Assembly: GCA_902792815.1 (NCBI GenBank)
Contig: CADBAY010000010.1
Span: forward strand, 16,261-80,260
DNA: 64,000 bases
Origin: an uncultured Bacteroidia bacterium
Lineage (GTDB): Bacteria; Bacteroidota; Bacteroidia; Bacteroidales; UBA932
Direction of reading: 5' to 3'
Shown here: in pieces, positions 34,781 to 48,077 of the stretch
How positions within the stretch are numbered: position 1 is the stretch's first letter
Layout of the letters: each line of letters opens with the position of its first letter
Program-made: the position numbers and the translations under genes
Notes under the pieces: generated by a model
Told to the model about the DNA's origin: nothing
Seen by the model: the letters and a program-made list of their open reading frames with translations, nothing else
Databases searched by the model: none

Positions 34781-34837
34781 CTCCTCCTCCCTACTGCCGG
34801 GTCACGGTCGTCCCGCTGCACGTGGACTTGCATCCGT

Positions 34838-34874
34838 CGGGCCCTCCCCCTGCCCGTGTCCGAGGGTGGACACG
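34838..34874 (+). repeat. Dispersed GC-rich core element, intergenic copy A
   Basis: CGGGCCCTCCCC (34838-34849) is followed 14 bases later by GGGTGGACACG (34864-34874). The same two blocks at the same spacing occur inside aroB and aroE. The match is weaker than that of the other copies. Confidence 0.55.
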
Positions 34875-34927
34875 CCCGCCCGCCGCCGCACCCCGCCGTC
34901 TCACGGCCCTGGCCGGCTCACGCCCTT

Positions 34928-35080
34928 CCCGTGTGCAAATCAGCCCTTCCTGCTCACGGCACAGGCCCGTCACCCCCTCCCGTGTGCAAATCAGCCCTCC
35001 CTGCCCCCGGGACAATCCCGCTGCGGCCTCCCGTGTGCAAATCAACCCTCCTTGCCCCCGGCACAGTCCCGCCACCGACG
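34928..35080. repeat. Three tandem 51-bp repeats
   Basis: CCCGTGTGCAAATCA starts at 34928, 34979 and 35030, exactly 51 bases apart. Each unit continues with a CCCTTCCTGC- or CCCTCCCTGC-like stretch. The period equals 17 codons, so both strands give 17-residue repeat translations, but no plausible start precedes them. The units differ at several sites, so this is an old or exchanging array. Confidence 0.9.
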
Positions 35081-35212: not shown

Positions 35213-35418
35213 CGGGATGCTGCAGCGAGCGGGCCTGCAGAGCAAAGTTAAAGCGCTGACTAATAGGAACTTAATTGATTCAGGGGGCCCGGTTTTCTGG
35301 CACCCTGAATTGCTTAAAGCCCTGCCTATCACCAACTTGGTTTTGCGCCCCCGCCCCCGGACACACACGGAAAGAAAGGTCAAAAGGGCGCTGCGTCAGG
35401 AGGTGGCGGTGCTGTTTT

Positions 35419-35457
35419 GGAGCCGTAAGCACCCTCGCTTGTAGAGGGAGGGGCCCG
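35419..35457 (-). repeat. Dispersed GC-rich core element, intergenic copy B
   Basis: On the minus strand CGGGCCCCTCCC (35446-35457) is followed 11 bases later by GGGTGCTTACGG (35423-35434). The first block is identical to those inside aroB and aroE, and the second differs from the aroB copy at two of twelve bases. Confidence 0.75.
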
Positions 35458-35488
35458 ACGCGCAGCGGTGGGAGGGCGAGGGCCGAAC

Positions 35489-35525
35489 GGCCCGAGGGCG
35501 GAAAGGCAGCCCGCCACCGACTGAC
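35489..35525. repeat. Dispersed repeat shared with the dnaK downstream region
   Basis: This stretch matches 2009-2045 at about 33 of 37 positions. The continuation CCGACTGACACCAGCG also recurs near 35075-35091, so part of the segment exists three times in the window. Confidence 0.7.
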
Positions 35526-43643: not shown

Positions 43644-44495
43644 TCATTTATCAAACAGGGCCCGCTTGGATGTAGAAAGCCTCATAAGTGAGCGAAGCAG
43701 CTCAGAGTCGCCCTGGGCGATAGCTTTGCGCAGGATCTGCATCTGGGCTTCAAATAAGTCAATCTGCTCCAGCAGCTTGTCGCGGTTGAGCAGGAAAAGC
43801 TCGCTCCACATCTCGTCGTTGATACGTGCTATACGGGTAAGGTCGCGGAACGAGTCGCCGGTGTAGGCCGACAGGTGCTCCACGTCGCGGCAGGTCATAA
43901 GGACCACCGCTATGCAGTGCGTGAGCTGGCTCAGGAATCCTATCATCTCGTCGTGACGCTCGGGGCTGAGGCGCGAGATGCGGGCAAATCCAAGCAGCCT
44001 TCCAAGCTCCTCGGTAGCTTCCACAGCGGCGGGAGTATTGCTTTCGGTGGGAGTTACTATATAATTGGCTCCCTGGAAGATAGAGCAGTCGGCATTGCGC
44101 ACGCCGTAGACCTCTCGGCCGGCCATGGGGTGGGCGCCTACGAATTCAAGGGCTGGGCGCAGCATGGCCTGTACCTTGTACACCACCGGTCCTTTGATGC
44201 CGGTTACGTCGGTGAGCAGGGCGCCGTCTTTAAGGTACTGCTGGTTGTCCTCCAGCCAGCGTAGGAGCACATTGGGGTAAAGGGCAAAGATCACAATGTC
44301 GCAGGTGCCCAGTTCCACGGGATCGACGGTGGTACTGCCCCAGTCGATCCATCCGCGCTCAAGGGCGTAGTCGATACTGCCTTGCGAGCGGGTTATAGCA
44401 TCTACCGTGAAACCCTGGCGCTTCAGGGCCTGGGCGTAGCTGCCGCCCATCAGGCCAAGGCCCACAATGAGTATCTTCTTGTCTTTAGTCAACAT
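43644..44495 (-). CDS. tyrA: Prephenate dehydrogenase
   Basis: The 283-residue NAD(P)-dependent enzyme decarboxylates prephenate to 4-hydroxyphenylpyruvate for tyrosine. The Rossmann loop is ILIVGLGLMGGSYAQALK. The catalytic His region is FVGAHPMAGREVYGVRNAD, and the dimerisation helices contain HDEMIGFLSQLTHCIAVVL and YTGDSFRDLTRIA. The start overlaps the end of aroE-aroK by 11 bases. Confidence 0.95.
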   Translation of the reverse strand: MLTKDKKILIVGLGLMGGSYAQALKRQGFTVDAITRSQGSIDYALERGWIDWGSTTVDPVELGTCDIVIFALYPNVLLRWLEDNQQYLKDGALLTDVTGIKGPVVYKVQAMLRPALEFVGAHPMAGREVYGVRNADCSIFQGANYIVTPTESNTPAAVEATEELGRLLGFARISRLSPERHDEMIGFLSQLTHCIAVVLMTCRDVEHLSAYTGDSFRDLTRIARINDEMWSELFLLNRDKLLEQIDLFEAQMQILRKAIAQGDSELLRSLMRLSTSKRALFDK

Positions 44496-45825
44496 AGGCT
44501 AAGAGTTGGGCAATGGTGTCCTCCAGAGGACCGTTGTTATCGATGCAAACTTCCGCGGCCCTAAGATAGGCGGCGCGGCGCGAGGTCCAGAGCGATTCGA
44601 GCTCGGCGCGGCTGCGCGAAAGGGGCCTGCCGGAGCCAGGCGAAAGCAGATGGAGGTCTCTCTCGATGAGGCAGATCAAGCCGTTGTGCCTGAGGAGTTT
44701 GACATTATGTTCCTTAAGCGGGGCTCCACCTCCGGTGGCTATCACCAGACCCTGCTCCGGAGCTATAGATTCGATGGCTATGGTCTCACGTGTGCGGAAG
44801 CCGGCCTCGCCTTCGAGTTCGAAAATGCGGGGTATGTCCATTCCGGCCTGCAGGGCTACTATCTCGTCGGTATCTACAAACCGGCGGCCGCAAGCATCGG
44901 CAAGGGCACGGCCCAGCGTGCTTTTGCCGCAGGAGGGCATGCCGCAGAGGACGATGTTGCGTTTGGAGTGGAGGAGGTGACGGTATTCGCGTTCGATTAT
45001 CTCGTCGGGGAGAGCCTCTCCAGTGAATAGTTCACGCGCCCTTACGGCCTGCGCCACAAGCATATACAGCCCTCCTTCCGCCGCCGGACACCCTGGAACG
45101 CTTGGGAACTTCGCTTCGCTCATCCCTCCCGTCGCGAGCGACGGGCCCCTCCCGTTCACGCGACCACGGGCGGCCACGGTTCCCTGCGCGTCCGCAGGGC
45201 ATCCGGCGGCATCAAGGACGAGGGATGTACGCAGCGGGTTGTAGATGCAGTCCAGCACAGCACGAAGGGGCCGCGAAGGGAGTTTTATGGGAGAGCCTTG
45301 CCAGCAGGGGAACATTCCCACGGGAGTGGCATTGACAATTATATCGCAATCTTCAAGAGAAGCAGGGTCGGAAAGCAACAGGTGTTCCGGCTCGGAAGGG
45401 TGCCTCACGGCATTCACCACCGACGCCGCACCCATTGCCAGAGAGGCCGCGCGCACCGCCTTGGCGGCTCCGCCGGCACCAAGGATCACCACCCTGGCGC
45501 CCGAGAAATCGGCTCCGGCGTGCTTTGCAAGGGCTATAAAGCCGTCATAATCGGTATTATAGCCATAGAGCTTGCCGCCACGGTTGACTATGGTATTGAC
45601 GGCTCCCGCTCCCCTTGCCGACTCCCCTATCTCATCGAGATAAGGCATCACGGCCTGCTTGTAGGGAATGGTTACATTGATGCCGCGGAAGTCACGCCGC
45701 TGCAGAAAAGCGGGGAGCTGGTCGGGACTCAGTTCAAAAAGCTCGTACGAATCAGACGAGAGCCTCCCGTGAATCAAGCGGGAGAAACTATGTCCGAGCT
45801 TTTCGCCTATGAGTCCGTACTGCAT
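44485..45825 (-). CDS. aroE/aroK: Shikimate dehydrogenase-shikimate kinase fusion carrying an in-frame GC-rich insert
   Basis: The 446-residue bifunctional protein covers steps 4 and 5 of the shikimate pathway. Residues 1-285 are AroE: GEKLGHSFSRLIH, the catalytic Lys in NVTIPYKQAV, NTDYDGF, nucleotide loop ILGAGGAAKAV and GGLYMLVAQAV. Residues about 288-446 are AroK: P-loop GMPSCGKST (295-303), VDTDEIVAL and IATGGGAPL. About 40 residues between NPLRTSLVLDA and GGLYMLV (about 208-248) replace what is usually a short loop. They are encoded by the palindromic element at 45081-45209. ATG at 45825 is one base from the aroC stop; an upstream in-frame start would overlap aroC. Confidence 0.9.
   Translation of the reverse strand: MQYGLIGEKLGHSFSRLIHGRLSSDSYELFELSPDQLPAFLQRRDFRGINVTIPYKQAVMPYLDEIGESARGAGAVNTIVNRGGKLYGYNTDYDGFIALAKHAGADFSGARVVILGAGGAAKAVRAASLAMGAASVVNAVRHPSEPEHLLLSDPASLEDCDIIVNATPVGMFPCWQGSPIKLPSRPLRAVLDCIYNPLRTSLVLDAAGCPADAQGTVAARGRVNGRGPSLATGGMSEAKFPSVPGCPAAEGGLYMLVAQAVRARELFTGEALPDEIIEREYRHLLHSKRNIVLCGMPSCGKSTLGRALADACGRRFVDTDEIVALQAGMDIPRIFELEGEAGFRTRETIAIESIAPEQGLVIATGGGAPLKEHNVKLLRHNGLICLIERDLHLLSPGSGRPLSRSRAELESLWTSRRAAYLRAAEVCIDNNGPLEDTIAQLLAYVD
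45081..45209 (-). repeat. In-frame palindromic GC-rich element inside aroE
   Basis: The 129-bp element (43 codons) is bounded by near-perfect inverted repeats CCGCCGGACACCCT (45081-45094) and AGGGCATCCGGCGG (45196-45209), 12 of 14 pairing. Inside lie TCGCTTCGC, CCCTCCCG, CGGGCCCCTCCC (45142-45153) and GGGCGGCCACGGT (45168-45180). The last two blocks are 14 bases apart, exactly as in the aroB element. A smaller internal hairpin, CCCGTCGC/GCGACGGG, surrounds 45128-45145. The length being a multiple of three keeps the aroE frame open. Confidence 0.75.
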
Positions 45826-45826
45826 T

Positions 45827-46918
45827 CTATTTGAGATAATCGGTTCCGAACCTAAGGGCAAGCAGGTCGCAGAGCACTATGGCCACAAGGCTGCTCACCA
45901 CTATACAAACGCGCCTGACTATGGCAGGGTCGTGACGCCCGGTTATAGTCAGCTGCGCGGCCTCGCCGGTATTCATATCCACCGAATCCTGAGGCCTTGC
46001 GATGGAAGGGGTGGGTTTAACTACAGCGCTGAAAATCAGCGGCATGCCATTGGATATGCCGCCGTTTACACCGCCGCTGTGATTGGTCTTCGTGAGCACT
46101 TTGCCACCGCTCACGCTATAGGCGTCGTTGGCCTGTGAGCCCTTCATTGAGGCAAGGGCAAAGCCGCTGCCGAACTCCACTCCCTTAATGCCGCCGATAG
46201 AGAACAGGGCATTGGCGAGCACACCTTCGACCGAGCTGAACCAGGGTTCGCCTACTCCGGCGGGAAGGCCGCAGACCGCAGTCTGCACTATGCCGCCCAC
46301 GGAATCAAGTTCCCCTTTGGCAGCAAGGATCCGTTCTTCCATGGCTTCGCGGACTGGCGAAAGGACGGGGAAATCCATCCCCTGAAGGGAGCGGACCTGC
46401 TCCGAGGTGTCGGTAGGATTGAAGGGTGTGTCTTTTACTCCGGCGCATTCAAGTATGTGAGTGCCAATGCTTATGCCTTTGGCTTCGAGTGCAGCCGCGG
46501 CAATGGCACCGGCCGCAACTATGCCTGCCGTTACCCGGCCGCTGAAATGGCCTCCGCCGCGCCAGTCTTCACAGCCGCCGTATTTGATATGGGCGGCGTA
46601 GTCGGCGTGCGAGGGGCGCGCCAGGGCGTGGGTGCGTTCGTAGTCGGCACTGCGTACATCTTCGTTGGGGATGAGTATGGTGATGGGGGCGCCGGTGGTG
46701 CGGCCTTCGAATACGCCGCTTACTATGCTGAATGCGTCTTTTTCGCGGCGGGCGGTGTCGGCGGGGCCTTTGGGGCGGCGGAGGGCGAGGCGCGATGCTA
46801 TGAACTGCTCGTCTACGGGGATACCGGGAGCAAGGCCGTCGAGTATGGCGCAGAGCATGCTGCCGTGCGATTCGCCGGCGAGGGTGAGGATTACGCTGGT
46901 GCCTATGCTATTTTTCAT
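45827..46918 (-). CDS. aroC: Chorismate synthase
   Basis: The 363-residue FMNH2-dependent enzyme forms chorismate from EPSP. The three family signatures are present: TLAGESHGSMLCAILDGLAPG, a GGHFSGRVTAGIVAAGAIA segment, and the C-terminal RHDPAIVRRVCIVVSSLVAIVL. His residues in GESHG and the GRHDP motif are intact. It overlaps aroB by 11 bases and lies one base from aroE-aroK, deep inside the operon. Confidence 0.96.
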   Translation of the reverse strand: MKNSIGTSVILTLAGESHGSMLCAILDGLAPGIPVDEQFIASRLALRRPKGPADTARREKDAFSIVSGVFEGRTTGAPITILIPNEDVRSADYERTHALARPSHADYAAHIKYGGCEDWRGGGHFSGRVTAGIVAAGAIAAAALEAKGISIGTHILECAGVKDTPFNPTDTSEQVRSLQGMDFPVLSPVREAMEERILAAKGELDSVGGIVQTAVCGLPAGVGEPWFSSVEGVLANALFSIGGIKGVEFGSGFALASMKGSQANDAYSVSGGKVLTKTNHSGGVNGGISNGMPLIFSAVVKPTPSIARPQDSVDMNTGEAAQLTITGRHDPAIVRRVCIVVSSLVAIVLCDLLALRFGTDYLK

Positions 46919-48077
46919 TTTTGCGGGCTTGGATTAGCTGCAGTAGCTCGGTGTCGGTGAGGCTGCGGAAGTTGTATGTTCCTATGGTGCTGACGGTTAC
47001 GATGCGGGTGGCGGCGGCGTTGCGTTTTTTGTCGGAGAGGGCGTAGTGGTGGAGTTCGGCGGCCGTGTAGGGGTCGGTGACGGGGAGGCCGTACTTTAGG
47101 AGGAGTTGTTGTATCCGCTGCCTGGCTTCTCCTTCTGAAGTGTATAGCATACCTACCGCTACCGCCTCACCATGATAATAGGTACCGCCAGCGATGTGGG
47201 ACAGCTCCCGGACGTCGCTTCGCGACCCCTCCCGCTCCGCGGGCCCCTCCCTCTTACGGAGCCGAGGGTGGCTACGGTCCGGGAGCTGTCCCCCACCGCT
47301 AGCGGCCACGCATCCCGGGGCGTCAGCAGCCCCACCGCTGGCTCCCGCGCTTTCTATCGCGTGACCGATCGTGTGGCCGAAGTTAAGGACGGCGCGGAGG
47401 CCTTTCTCGCCGGGGTCGCGGGTGACGATGTCGAGTTTAATCTGCAGGGCGGCGGCTATGATTTCGGGGAGTACGGGCTTGATGTCCGTGACTTCTTCGA
47501 GGCGGCGGAAGAGGGGTTCGCTGCAGGTGGCTGCCATTTTGATTACTTCGGCAAGGCCTTCGGCGAAGAGGCGCGGAGGCAGGGTGTCCAGTACGGCGGA
47601 GTCGATAAGGACTCCCGAGGGGTGATGGAAGGCGCCGACCAAGTTTTTGATTCCGTTGAAGTTGACGGCGGTCTTGCCGCCCACCGAAGAATCTACCTGG
47701 CTGAGCAGCGTGGTGGGCACGTTGTAGTAGTCGATGCCCCGCTGGTAGCAGGCTGCGGCAAAGCCCGACACATCGCCTACCACTCCCCCGCCCACTGCCA
47801 CGATGGCATCGCGCCGGGTAAAGCCACGCTCCTGCAAGGCCGAAAGTATGGTCTGAAGAGTGGCGAAACTCTTGGCTCCTTCGCCCTGCGGAATCACCAG
47901 GAGCGAAGCGTCGGGGCACTGGGGGAGGACAGCGTCCGCATACTGCGGGGGCACGCCCTCGTCGGTGATTACCAGCACTTTACGGTCAAACGCAAAAAGC
48001 TTTCCGGCATCGCCAAGGATGCCGGTGCCTATAGTAATGTCGTAGGAAAGCCCCGCGCTCCGGTACCGTAGAGTCAT
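46908..48077 (-). CDS. aroB: 3-dehydroquinate synthase with an in-frame GC-rich insert
   Basis: The 389-residue NAD- and zinc-dependent enzyme is the second step of the shikimate pathway. Motifs are VGGGVVGDVSGFAAACYQRG, PTTLLSQVDSSVGGKTAVNF, the zinc Glu in GLAEVIKMA, and zinc His in NFGHTIGHAIE (His235) and YHGEAVAVGM (His302). These two His residues are 67 apart, against 17 in E. coli AroB. The extra 50 residues (about 243-298, Gly/Arg/Ser-rich) come from the palindromic element at 47190-47300 and its flanks. The insert lies beside the active site, so activity could be altered. All other catalytic residues look intact. Confidence 0.92.
   Translation of the reverse strand: MTLRYRSAGLSYDITIGTGILGDAGKLFAFDRKVLVITDEGVPPQYADAVLPQCPDASLLVIPQGEGAKSFATLQTILSALQERGFTRRDAIVAVGGGVVGDVSGFAAACYQRGIDYYNVPTTLLSQVDSSVGGKTAVNFNGIKNLVGAFHHPSGVLIDSAVLDTLPPRLFAEGLAEVIKMAATCSEPLFRRLEEVTDIKPVLPEIIAAALQIKLDIVTRDPGEKGLRAVLNFGHTIGHAIESAGASGGAADAPGCVAASGGGQLPDRSHPRLRKREGPAEREGSRSDVRELSHIAGGTYYHGEAVAVGMLYTSEGEARQRIQQLLLKYGLPVTDPYTAAELHHYALSDKKRNAAATRIVTVSTIGTYNFRSLTDTELLQLIQARKNEK
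47190..47300 (-). repeat. In-frame palindromic GC-rich element inside aroB
   Basis: Arms of 24 bases (47190-47213 and 47277-47300) pair at 22 positions, including a perfect 16-bp core GGGACAGCTCCCGGAC. The 63-base interior has TCGCTTCGC, CCCTCCCG, CGGGCCCCTCCC (47240-47251) and GGGTGGCTACGGT (47266-47278). The order and the 14-base spacing of the last two blocks equal those of the aroE element. The 111 bases are divisible by three. A second palindromic stretch (CCGCTAGCGG and on to about 47340) continues the insert. Confidence 0.8.

Follow-up and report, generated by a model that had tools for sequence, protein, structure and literature searches.

The window, by which we mean the whole stretch of 64,000 nt that was analysed, contains two genes on its minus strand, aroB and an aroE fused to shikimate kinase, that each carry an in-frame insert composed of a folded core between two inverted arms. 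Two related sequences lie in intergenic DNA of the same stretch. The features are the following:

34811..34885, minus strand: degenerate relative of the element, with hairpin 1 (GTGTCC-ACCCTC-GGACAC) and one G-block only
35395..35525, plus strand: intergenic copy (L016) of the AAGCACCCTCGCTT hairpin-1 subfamily, with imperfect arms (15 nt, 87%)
44485..45825, minus strand: aroE fused to shikimate kinase (aroE-aroK), host gene
45080..45109, minus strand: 3′ arm (element orientation) of the aroE copy, 30 nt
45110..45178, minus strand: core of the aroE copy (L017), with a CCCGT loop and its ACGGG partner
45179..45210, minus strand: 5′ arm (element orientation) of the aroE copy, 32 nt
46908..48077, minus strand: aroB (3-dehydroquinate synthase), host gene, with the insert at about residues 250–294 of the AlphaFold model
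47185..47213, minus strand: 3′ arm (element orientation) of the aroB copy, 29 nt
47214..47276, minus strand: core of the aroB copy (L018), with the CCCTC loop of hairpin 1, its GAGGG pseudoknot partner, GGGAGGGGCCC-hairpin 2-GGGAGGG and hairpin 3
47277..47305, minus strand: 5′ arm (element orientation) of the aroB copy, 29 nt, 90% complementary to the 3′ arm

In the aro copies, arm, core and arm together measure 121–131 bp. The first-pass annotation had described four sequence blocks common to both inserts, with inverted repeats at the insert boundaries and an unbroken reading frame, and this description was borne out: the blocks are present in aroB and aroE in the order given there, with the last two 14 bases apart in both genes, and arms of 29/29 nt (aroB) and 30/32 nt (aroE) enclose inserts that keep the frame. 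Its view that these are extra segments likewise agrees with the comparison across relatives, many of which lack them. The AroB loop between GHAIE and HGEAV comprises 59 residues here, as against 8–12 residues in 12 of 20 genus genomes (it is longer in the other eight), and the AroE loop has 48 residues in the source genome but 12 in L079 and L080, both of them named relatives. As had also been proposed, the AroB insert splits the zinc-site motifs, being located between the conserved GHTxxH and HGEA, whose histidines we take to be the zinc ligands. In the AlphaFold model of AroB (pTM 0.85, mean pLDDT 87.9), the insert residues 250–294 have a pLDDT below 50. Both insertions are also present in the nearest genome, G070, and are thus not specific to the source strain. 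The aroB insert of G070 (L205, L206) is larger and contains a tandem repeat where the assembly breaks into two contigs. In another genome, G140, it is a different palindromic repeat, CCCTGCGGG, that lengthens this AroB loop, to 46 residues (L058).

The two intergenic relatives that had been pointed out in the window fared less uniformly. The one near 35419 has a full core of the repeat, but it lies on the plus strand, opposite to the aro copies, and not on the minus strand as first assigned; it spans about 35395–35525, and its orientation and flanks are the same as those of L131 in G070. The other, at 34838–34874, is indeed related, but only as a degenerate sequence that comprises hairpin 1 plus a single G-block. 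Intergenic repeated units with CCCGTGTGCAAATCA.. occupy window positions 34920–35060, and similar CCCGTGTGCAGAA.. units flank the L010 site elsewhere in the genome.

The shared core and a pattern search of the source genome identify the aroB and aroE inserts as members of one repeat family. When run over the whole source assembly (2.37 Mb, 48 contigs), the strict pattern GGGAGGGGCCCG-N3-30-GGGAGGG matched 26 copies and its reversed control none, which excludes chance similarity and confirms the further genome copies that the first-pass annotation had anticipated. Among the 61 genomes searched, the strict pattern is found in 24 of 37 from the same genus and in 0 of 24 from other families of the order. 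A core pattern of the strict type that additionally includes the hairpin-1 CCC was found in 270 of 400 genus genomes sampled, and in 105 of 150 among the better ones, with no match for the control. The nearest named relatives of the source genome, several of which come from rumen or omasum, are bins assigned to Bacteroidales. A family-like motif is not confined to the genus, as the double-hairpin pattern matches 112 viral-contig stretches from other bacteria. Of 80 listed viral-contig loci, 21 also match a BoxC/TM-like pattern whose linker is longer; many of the rest are nearly identical to one another, being copies of a single stretch in Vibrio phages (e.g. Vf33) that carries no annotated feature. 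In high-GC viral contigs (L222–L301), GGGAGGGGCCC-hairpin-GGGAGGG is common, with up to five copies per ~10 kb.

Seven of the 26 strict source copies lie inside Pfam-matched ORFs, a count that covers spanning ORFs of at least 280 aa, in line with the proposal of a palindromic family that colonises coding and non-coding DNA in a manner analogous to the palindromic elements of Rickettsia. The Pfam matches of these ORFs are RrnaAD, ATP_bind_3, Methyltransf_4, Methyltrans_RNA, EamA, aroE-aroK and aroB, the first four of which, judging from the families, probably correspond to ksgA, tilS, trmB and rsmE, respectively. Four of the seven copies are in sense and three in antisense orientation. In relatives, in-gene copies occur in prmC and in genes for a Mur ligase, UvrD, a SAM methyltransferase, a histidine phosphatase, a YgiQ-type radical SAM protein and a THUMP protein. 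Two genomes have copies, L029 and L031, in YgiQ-like radical SAM genes, one in sense and the other in antisense orientation to the ORF. Selection for stop-free cores was considered and rejected, with a mean of 3.96 open frames out of six across 76 copies versus 3.85 in shuffles.

In each copy, inverted arms enclose a core of about 60–100 nt that has three hairpins and includes GGGAGGGGCCC-hairpin-GGGAGGG. The core features a pseudoknot in which the hairpin-1 loop CCCNN pairs with NNGGG, that is, with the two bases before the first GGGAGGG and its GGG. The NN positions are complementary in 74 of 79 scorable copies (seven matches without the CCC loop were dropped, and two were unscorable because of a nested second element or spurious overlap), in five types: GT/AC (34), TC/GA (19), AC/GT (15), GC/GC (4) and CC/GG (2). 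Further rows from 28 other genomes, taken as a subset of the 400-genome survey after manual removal of earlier-used genomes and some repeated rows, are complementary in 97 of 106 cases, compared with 31 on average and at most 48 in shuffles; the pseudoknot rows include orthologues and relatives and do not represent independent events. Pairing in the two helices reaches 94.9% over 44 distinct segments, versus 81.6% in shuffled and 32–58% in slid controls, and 64 double-change cells were counted against 13.2 in shuffles (0/500 shuffles). Two of the five covariation measures were weak: the number of pair types was matched in 121 of 500 shuffles, and one of the hairpin-1 pairs does not form in 18 of the 44 segments. 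At pair 4 of hairpin 2, G.T occurs 95 times and A.C never in 186 rows, indicating that the fold of the G-rich strand matters. At some sites, part of hairpin 1 is replaced by a second palindromic element (GCCCC..GGGCAAGTGTCCCC..GGGGGAC..AGGGGG), as at L002 and L020 in the source genome and L128 and L138 in G070; at L002 and L006 this element is present in one genome and missing from the orthologous copy of the other.

Inverted arms were found in 44 of 49 copies and are missing in five; in 30 of the 44 they are ungapped and 20–35 nt long. An arm score of at least 12 was reached by 56 of 68 copies, compared with 3 of 392 swapped-flank controls. The sequences of the arms are specific to the site: among 58 copies, 10-mers are shared chiefly by orthologues, and other pairs share one or two. 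Two accounts of the arms were set aside. One takes them from a donor copy, but no donor was seen among the arms of the 58 copies; the other, that they serve solely as terminator targets, fails as a general account because arms occur inside genes too.

Comparison with G070 reveals how copies change over time. This genome (87–88% DNA identity around the aro genes) contains 38 copies by a looser pattern. The 28 source copies yielded 21 orthologous pairs; six copies had no orthologue, and L013 was dropped, since the only flank of it that matches points to the G070 copy paired with L016. Between the two draft assemblies, the core is inverted at eight of the 21 shared sites (L007, L008, L009, L010, L014, L022, L026 and L212, all with unanimous flank k-mers) and has the same orientation at 13. 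In the alignments, the arms remain collinear around the inverted core, and at L007 an identical core is found with wholly different arms. The two arms of a copy change in concert: in 497 columns from 18 sites, with hand-delimited arms and with L010 entered in element orientation though its core is inverted, 360 columns are unchanged, 49 have changed alike in both arms (15 of them at L007 alone), 60 are one-sided and 28 show other patterns. Core and arms are missing from one genome at four sites, namely from G070 at L012 and from the source genome at L127, L130 and L154, through either insertion or loss; at L130, the source genome has a 10-bp palindrome in place of the element. Most of the arm sequence at empty sites was not found in the other genome, and thus simple inverted copying of the flank fails as the origin of the arms. 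The core can be lost, as seen in the source genome at L148, where arms stand without a core, and at L152, where the arms enclose a stub of hairpin 3. L220, the source counterpart (C22) of L140 in G070, has one G-block, as if hairpin 2 had been lost between two GGGAGGG blocks.

Taken with the conserved core, these changes make it probable, in our judgement, that the inserts are a non-autonomous palindromic element of mobile type, whose core is flipped by template switching of the arms. The G-rich strand would fold into hairpin 1 with its loop–linker pseudoknot, hairpin 2 and hairpin 3. A conserved fold combined with free orientation points to selection on propagation: the fold would help the element to propagate as single-stranded DNA, and would not be there for a function at each site. 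After a copy has settled, template switching between the arms during replication would homogenise them, such that both arms turn over together and the core may flip. Switching of this kind between inverted repeats would produce concerted arms and flips without a dedicated recombinase. An excerpt of PMC8604942 reports that template switching homogenises the arms and inverts the spacers of short inverted repeats, coding DNA included. Our elements resemble those cases in arm homogenisation, spacer inversion and occurrence in coding DNA; the cases in that excerpt are isolated yeast sites, whereas here a repeat family supplies the inverted repeats.

The element might be moved in trans by Y1 (HUH) transposases of a diverged RAYT type, whose genes lie elsewhere in the genome. 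We compared 29 high-copy genomes (at least six copies) with 30 of the 34 available zero-copy genomes, all at least 95% complete. Y1_Tnp (PF01797, E 0.001) was detected in 29/29 high-copy and 13/30 zero-copy genomes (Fisher p 6e-7, a value overstated because the genomes are related) and exceeded the Pfam cut-off in 24/29 and 10/30, respectively. For RVT_1, used as a control, the numbers are 13/29 and 13/30; as this family is also missing from the source genome and G070, reverse transcriptase was rejected as the mover. The best NCBIfam match of two Y1 proteins from the source genome and one from G070 is REP-associated tyrosine transposase (RAYT), with scores (32.8 and 34.9 bits in the source genome, 23.1 in G070) far below the cut-off of 80. 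A strict copy lies within 10 kb of none of the three source Y1 genes and of one of the five in G070. We tentatively regard RAYT-like Y1 transposases, acting in trans, as the best candidate movers, although they may well prove not to be responsible.

Among the alternatives, the elements could be phase-variable invertons, whose function would lie in the flipping of the core itself, brought about in living populations by a recombinase that reads either a specific site or a structure. Invertons are well described in gut bacteria, according to a portion of PMC11892184, and share with our elements the invertible DNA between inverted repeats, here seen between two genomes. Inversion with collinear flanks at the eight sites fits this idea, as do flips inside genes, namely trmB (L010), rsmE (L014) and the histidine phosphatase gene (L212/L137). 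The arms, however, differ between sites (the one or two 10-mers shared by non-orthologous pairs among 58 copies), and thus provide no common recombination site, unlike those of site-specific invertons; the recombinase would need to read the core or the hairpin shape. We consider this explanation unlikely.

It is also rather improbable that the copies are cis-acting structured RNAs (terminators, attenuators or riboregulators) kept for their function at each site. The strong structural covariation, with G.T but no A.C at hairpin-2 pair 4, is what such RNAs would show, and some copies (such as L005) have A- and T-runs beyond their arms and look like terminators that act in both directions. Yet orientation is not kept between species, in-gene source copies are nearly balanced between sense and antisense, and the window and seven loci gave no match in Rfam 15 at gathering score. 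Similarly, we strongly doubt that the inversions are assembly artefacts of metagenome bins. All compared genomes are fragmented drafts (48 and about 90 contigs), and hairpins are difficult to sequence and assemble, but an aro element with both arms is about as long as one short read (at an assumed read length), the k-mers of the flanks agree at every inverted site, and the spanning ORFs at trmB are open in both the source genome and G070. The last alternative, ancient conserved AroB and AroE extensions that only look repetitive, is refuted: source and G070 have the inserts in common, but most of the AroB proteins compared have only the short loop, members of this DNA family also lie between genes and within unrelated ones, and the AroB insert is modelled with very low confidence.

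Returning to the family as a mobile-type element, we found no recognised description of it among CC-licensed PMC papers. Rickettsia palindromic elements (RPEs) are palindromic repeats that occur in frame inside conserved genes and in intergenic DNA. Compared by description, our elements resemble RPEs in size and in combining in-frame insertion into conserved genes with intergenic copies, but their host belongs to another phylum, and we know of no loop pseudoknot, site-specific arms or core inversion in RPEs. The CGTC tag that an excerpt of Di Nocera 2013 (PMC3733652) reports for RPEs is found in only a minority of hairpin-1 sequences here.

The elements also have features of REP/REPIN sequences, being short structured repeats with strand-specific features, and, as with REPs, RAYT-like Y1 genes accompany high copy number. 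Part of PMC6006769 describes a Bacteroidetes TnpA-REP subclass (2.6) with atypical secondary structures on its flanks, of which the genome contains further copies, and gives as the REP hallmark a GT[AG]G located 0–2 nt 5′ of the hairpin foot. In our family, by contrast, GT[AG]G (columns 5–8, 33/44 sequences) is paired within the hairpin-1 stem, and the hallmark arrangement is absent. Further differences from REPs are the extra hairpins and long arms, the RAYT-like genes that are mostly not flanked by copies, and a distribution that is not extragenic only, with at least 7 of 26 source copies in Pfam-supported ORFs. BoxC/TM sequences, as presented in a section of PMC4666352, are similar in being G-rich hairpin repeats linked with instability, and have the intrastrand triplex consensus CCCTCNCCC-N3-6-GGGNGAGGG-N3-GGGNGAGGG; membership was rejected, as 0 of 68 copies fit it. 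Our preferred classification of the family is as a new variant among palindromic, REP/RPE-like repeats, outside REP and BoxC themselves.

Short, folded, mobile-looking elements have thus spread through a group of rumen bacteria without breaking the frames of their host genes. Within a single bacterial genus, they offer template switching at inverted repeats in hundreds of natural replicates, some in genes and others outside them, and they are a second, apparently separate, case of conserved enzymes that tolerate in-frame palindromic repeats. For single-strand mobility in Bacteroidales, they name a testable enzyme class together with a pseudoknotted substrate. It is conceivable, though not what we expect, that they constitute a class of structure-guided single-strand mobile elements, with a pseudoknotted core read by diverged RAYT-type enzymes and with self-renewing arms that would make each insertion, including those in essential enzymes, a flip-flop, such that in living populations the gene hosting it could be read with either of two loop sequences. 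Should flips be common within populations, they would have consequences for how genes are annotated and proteins clustered in these rumen bacteria.
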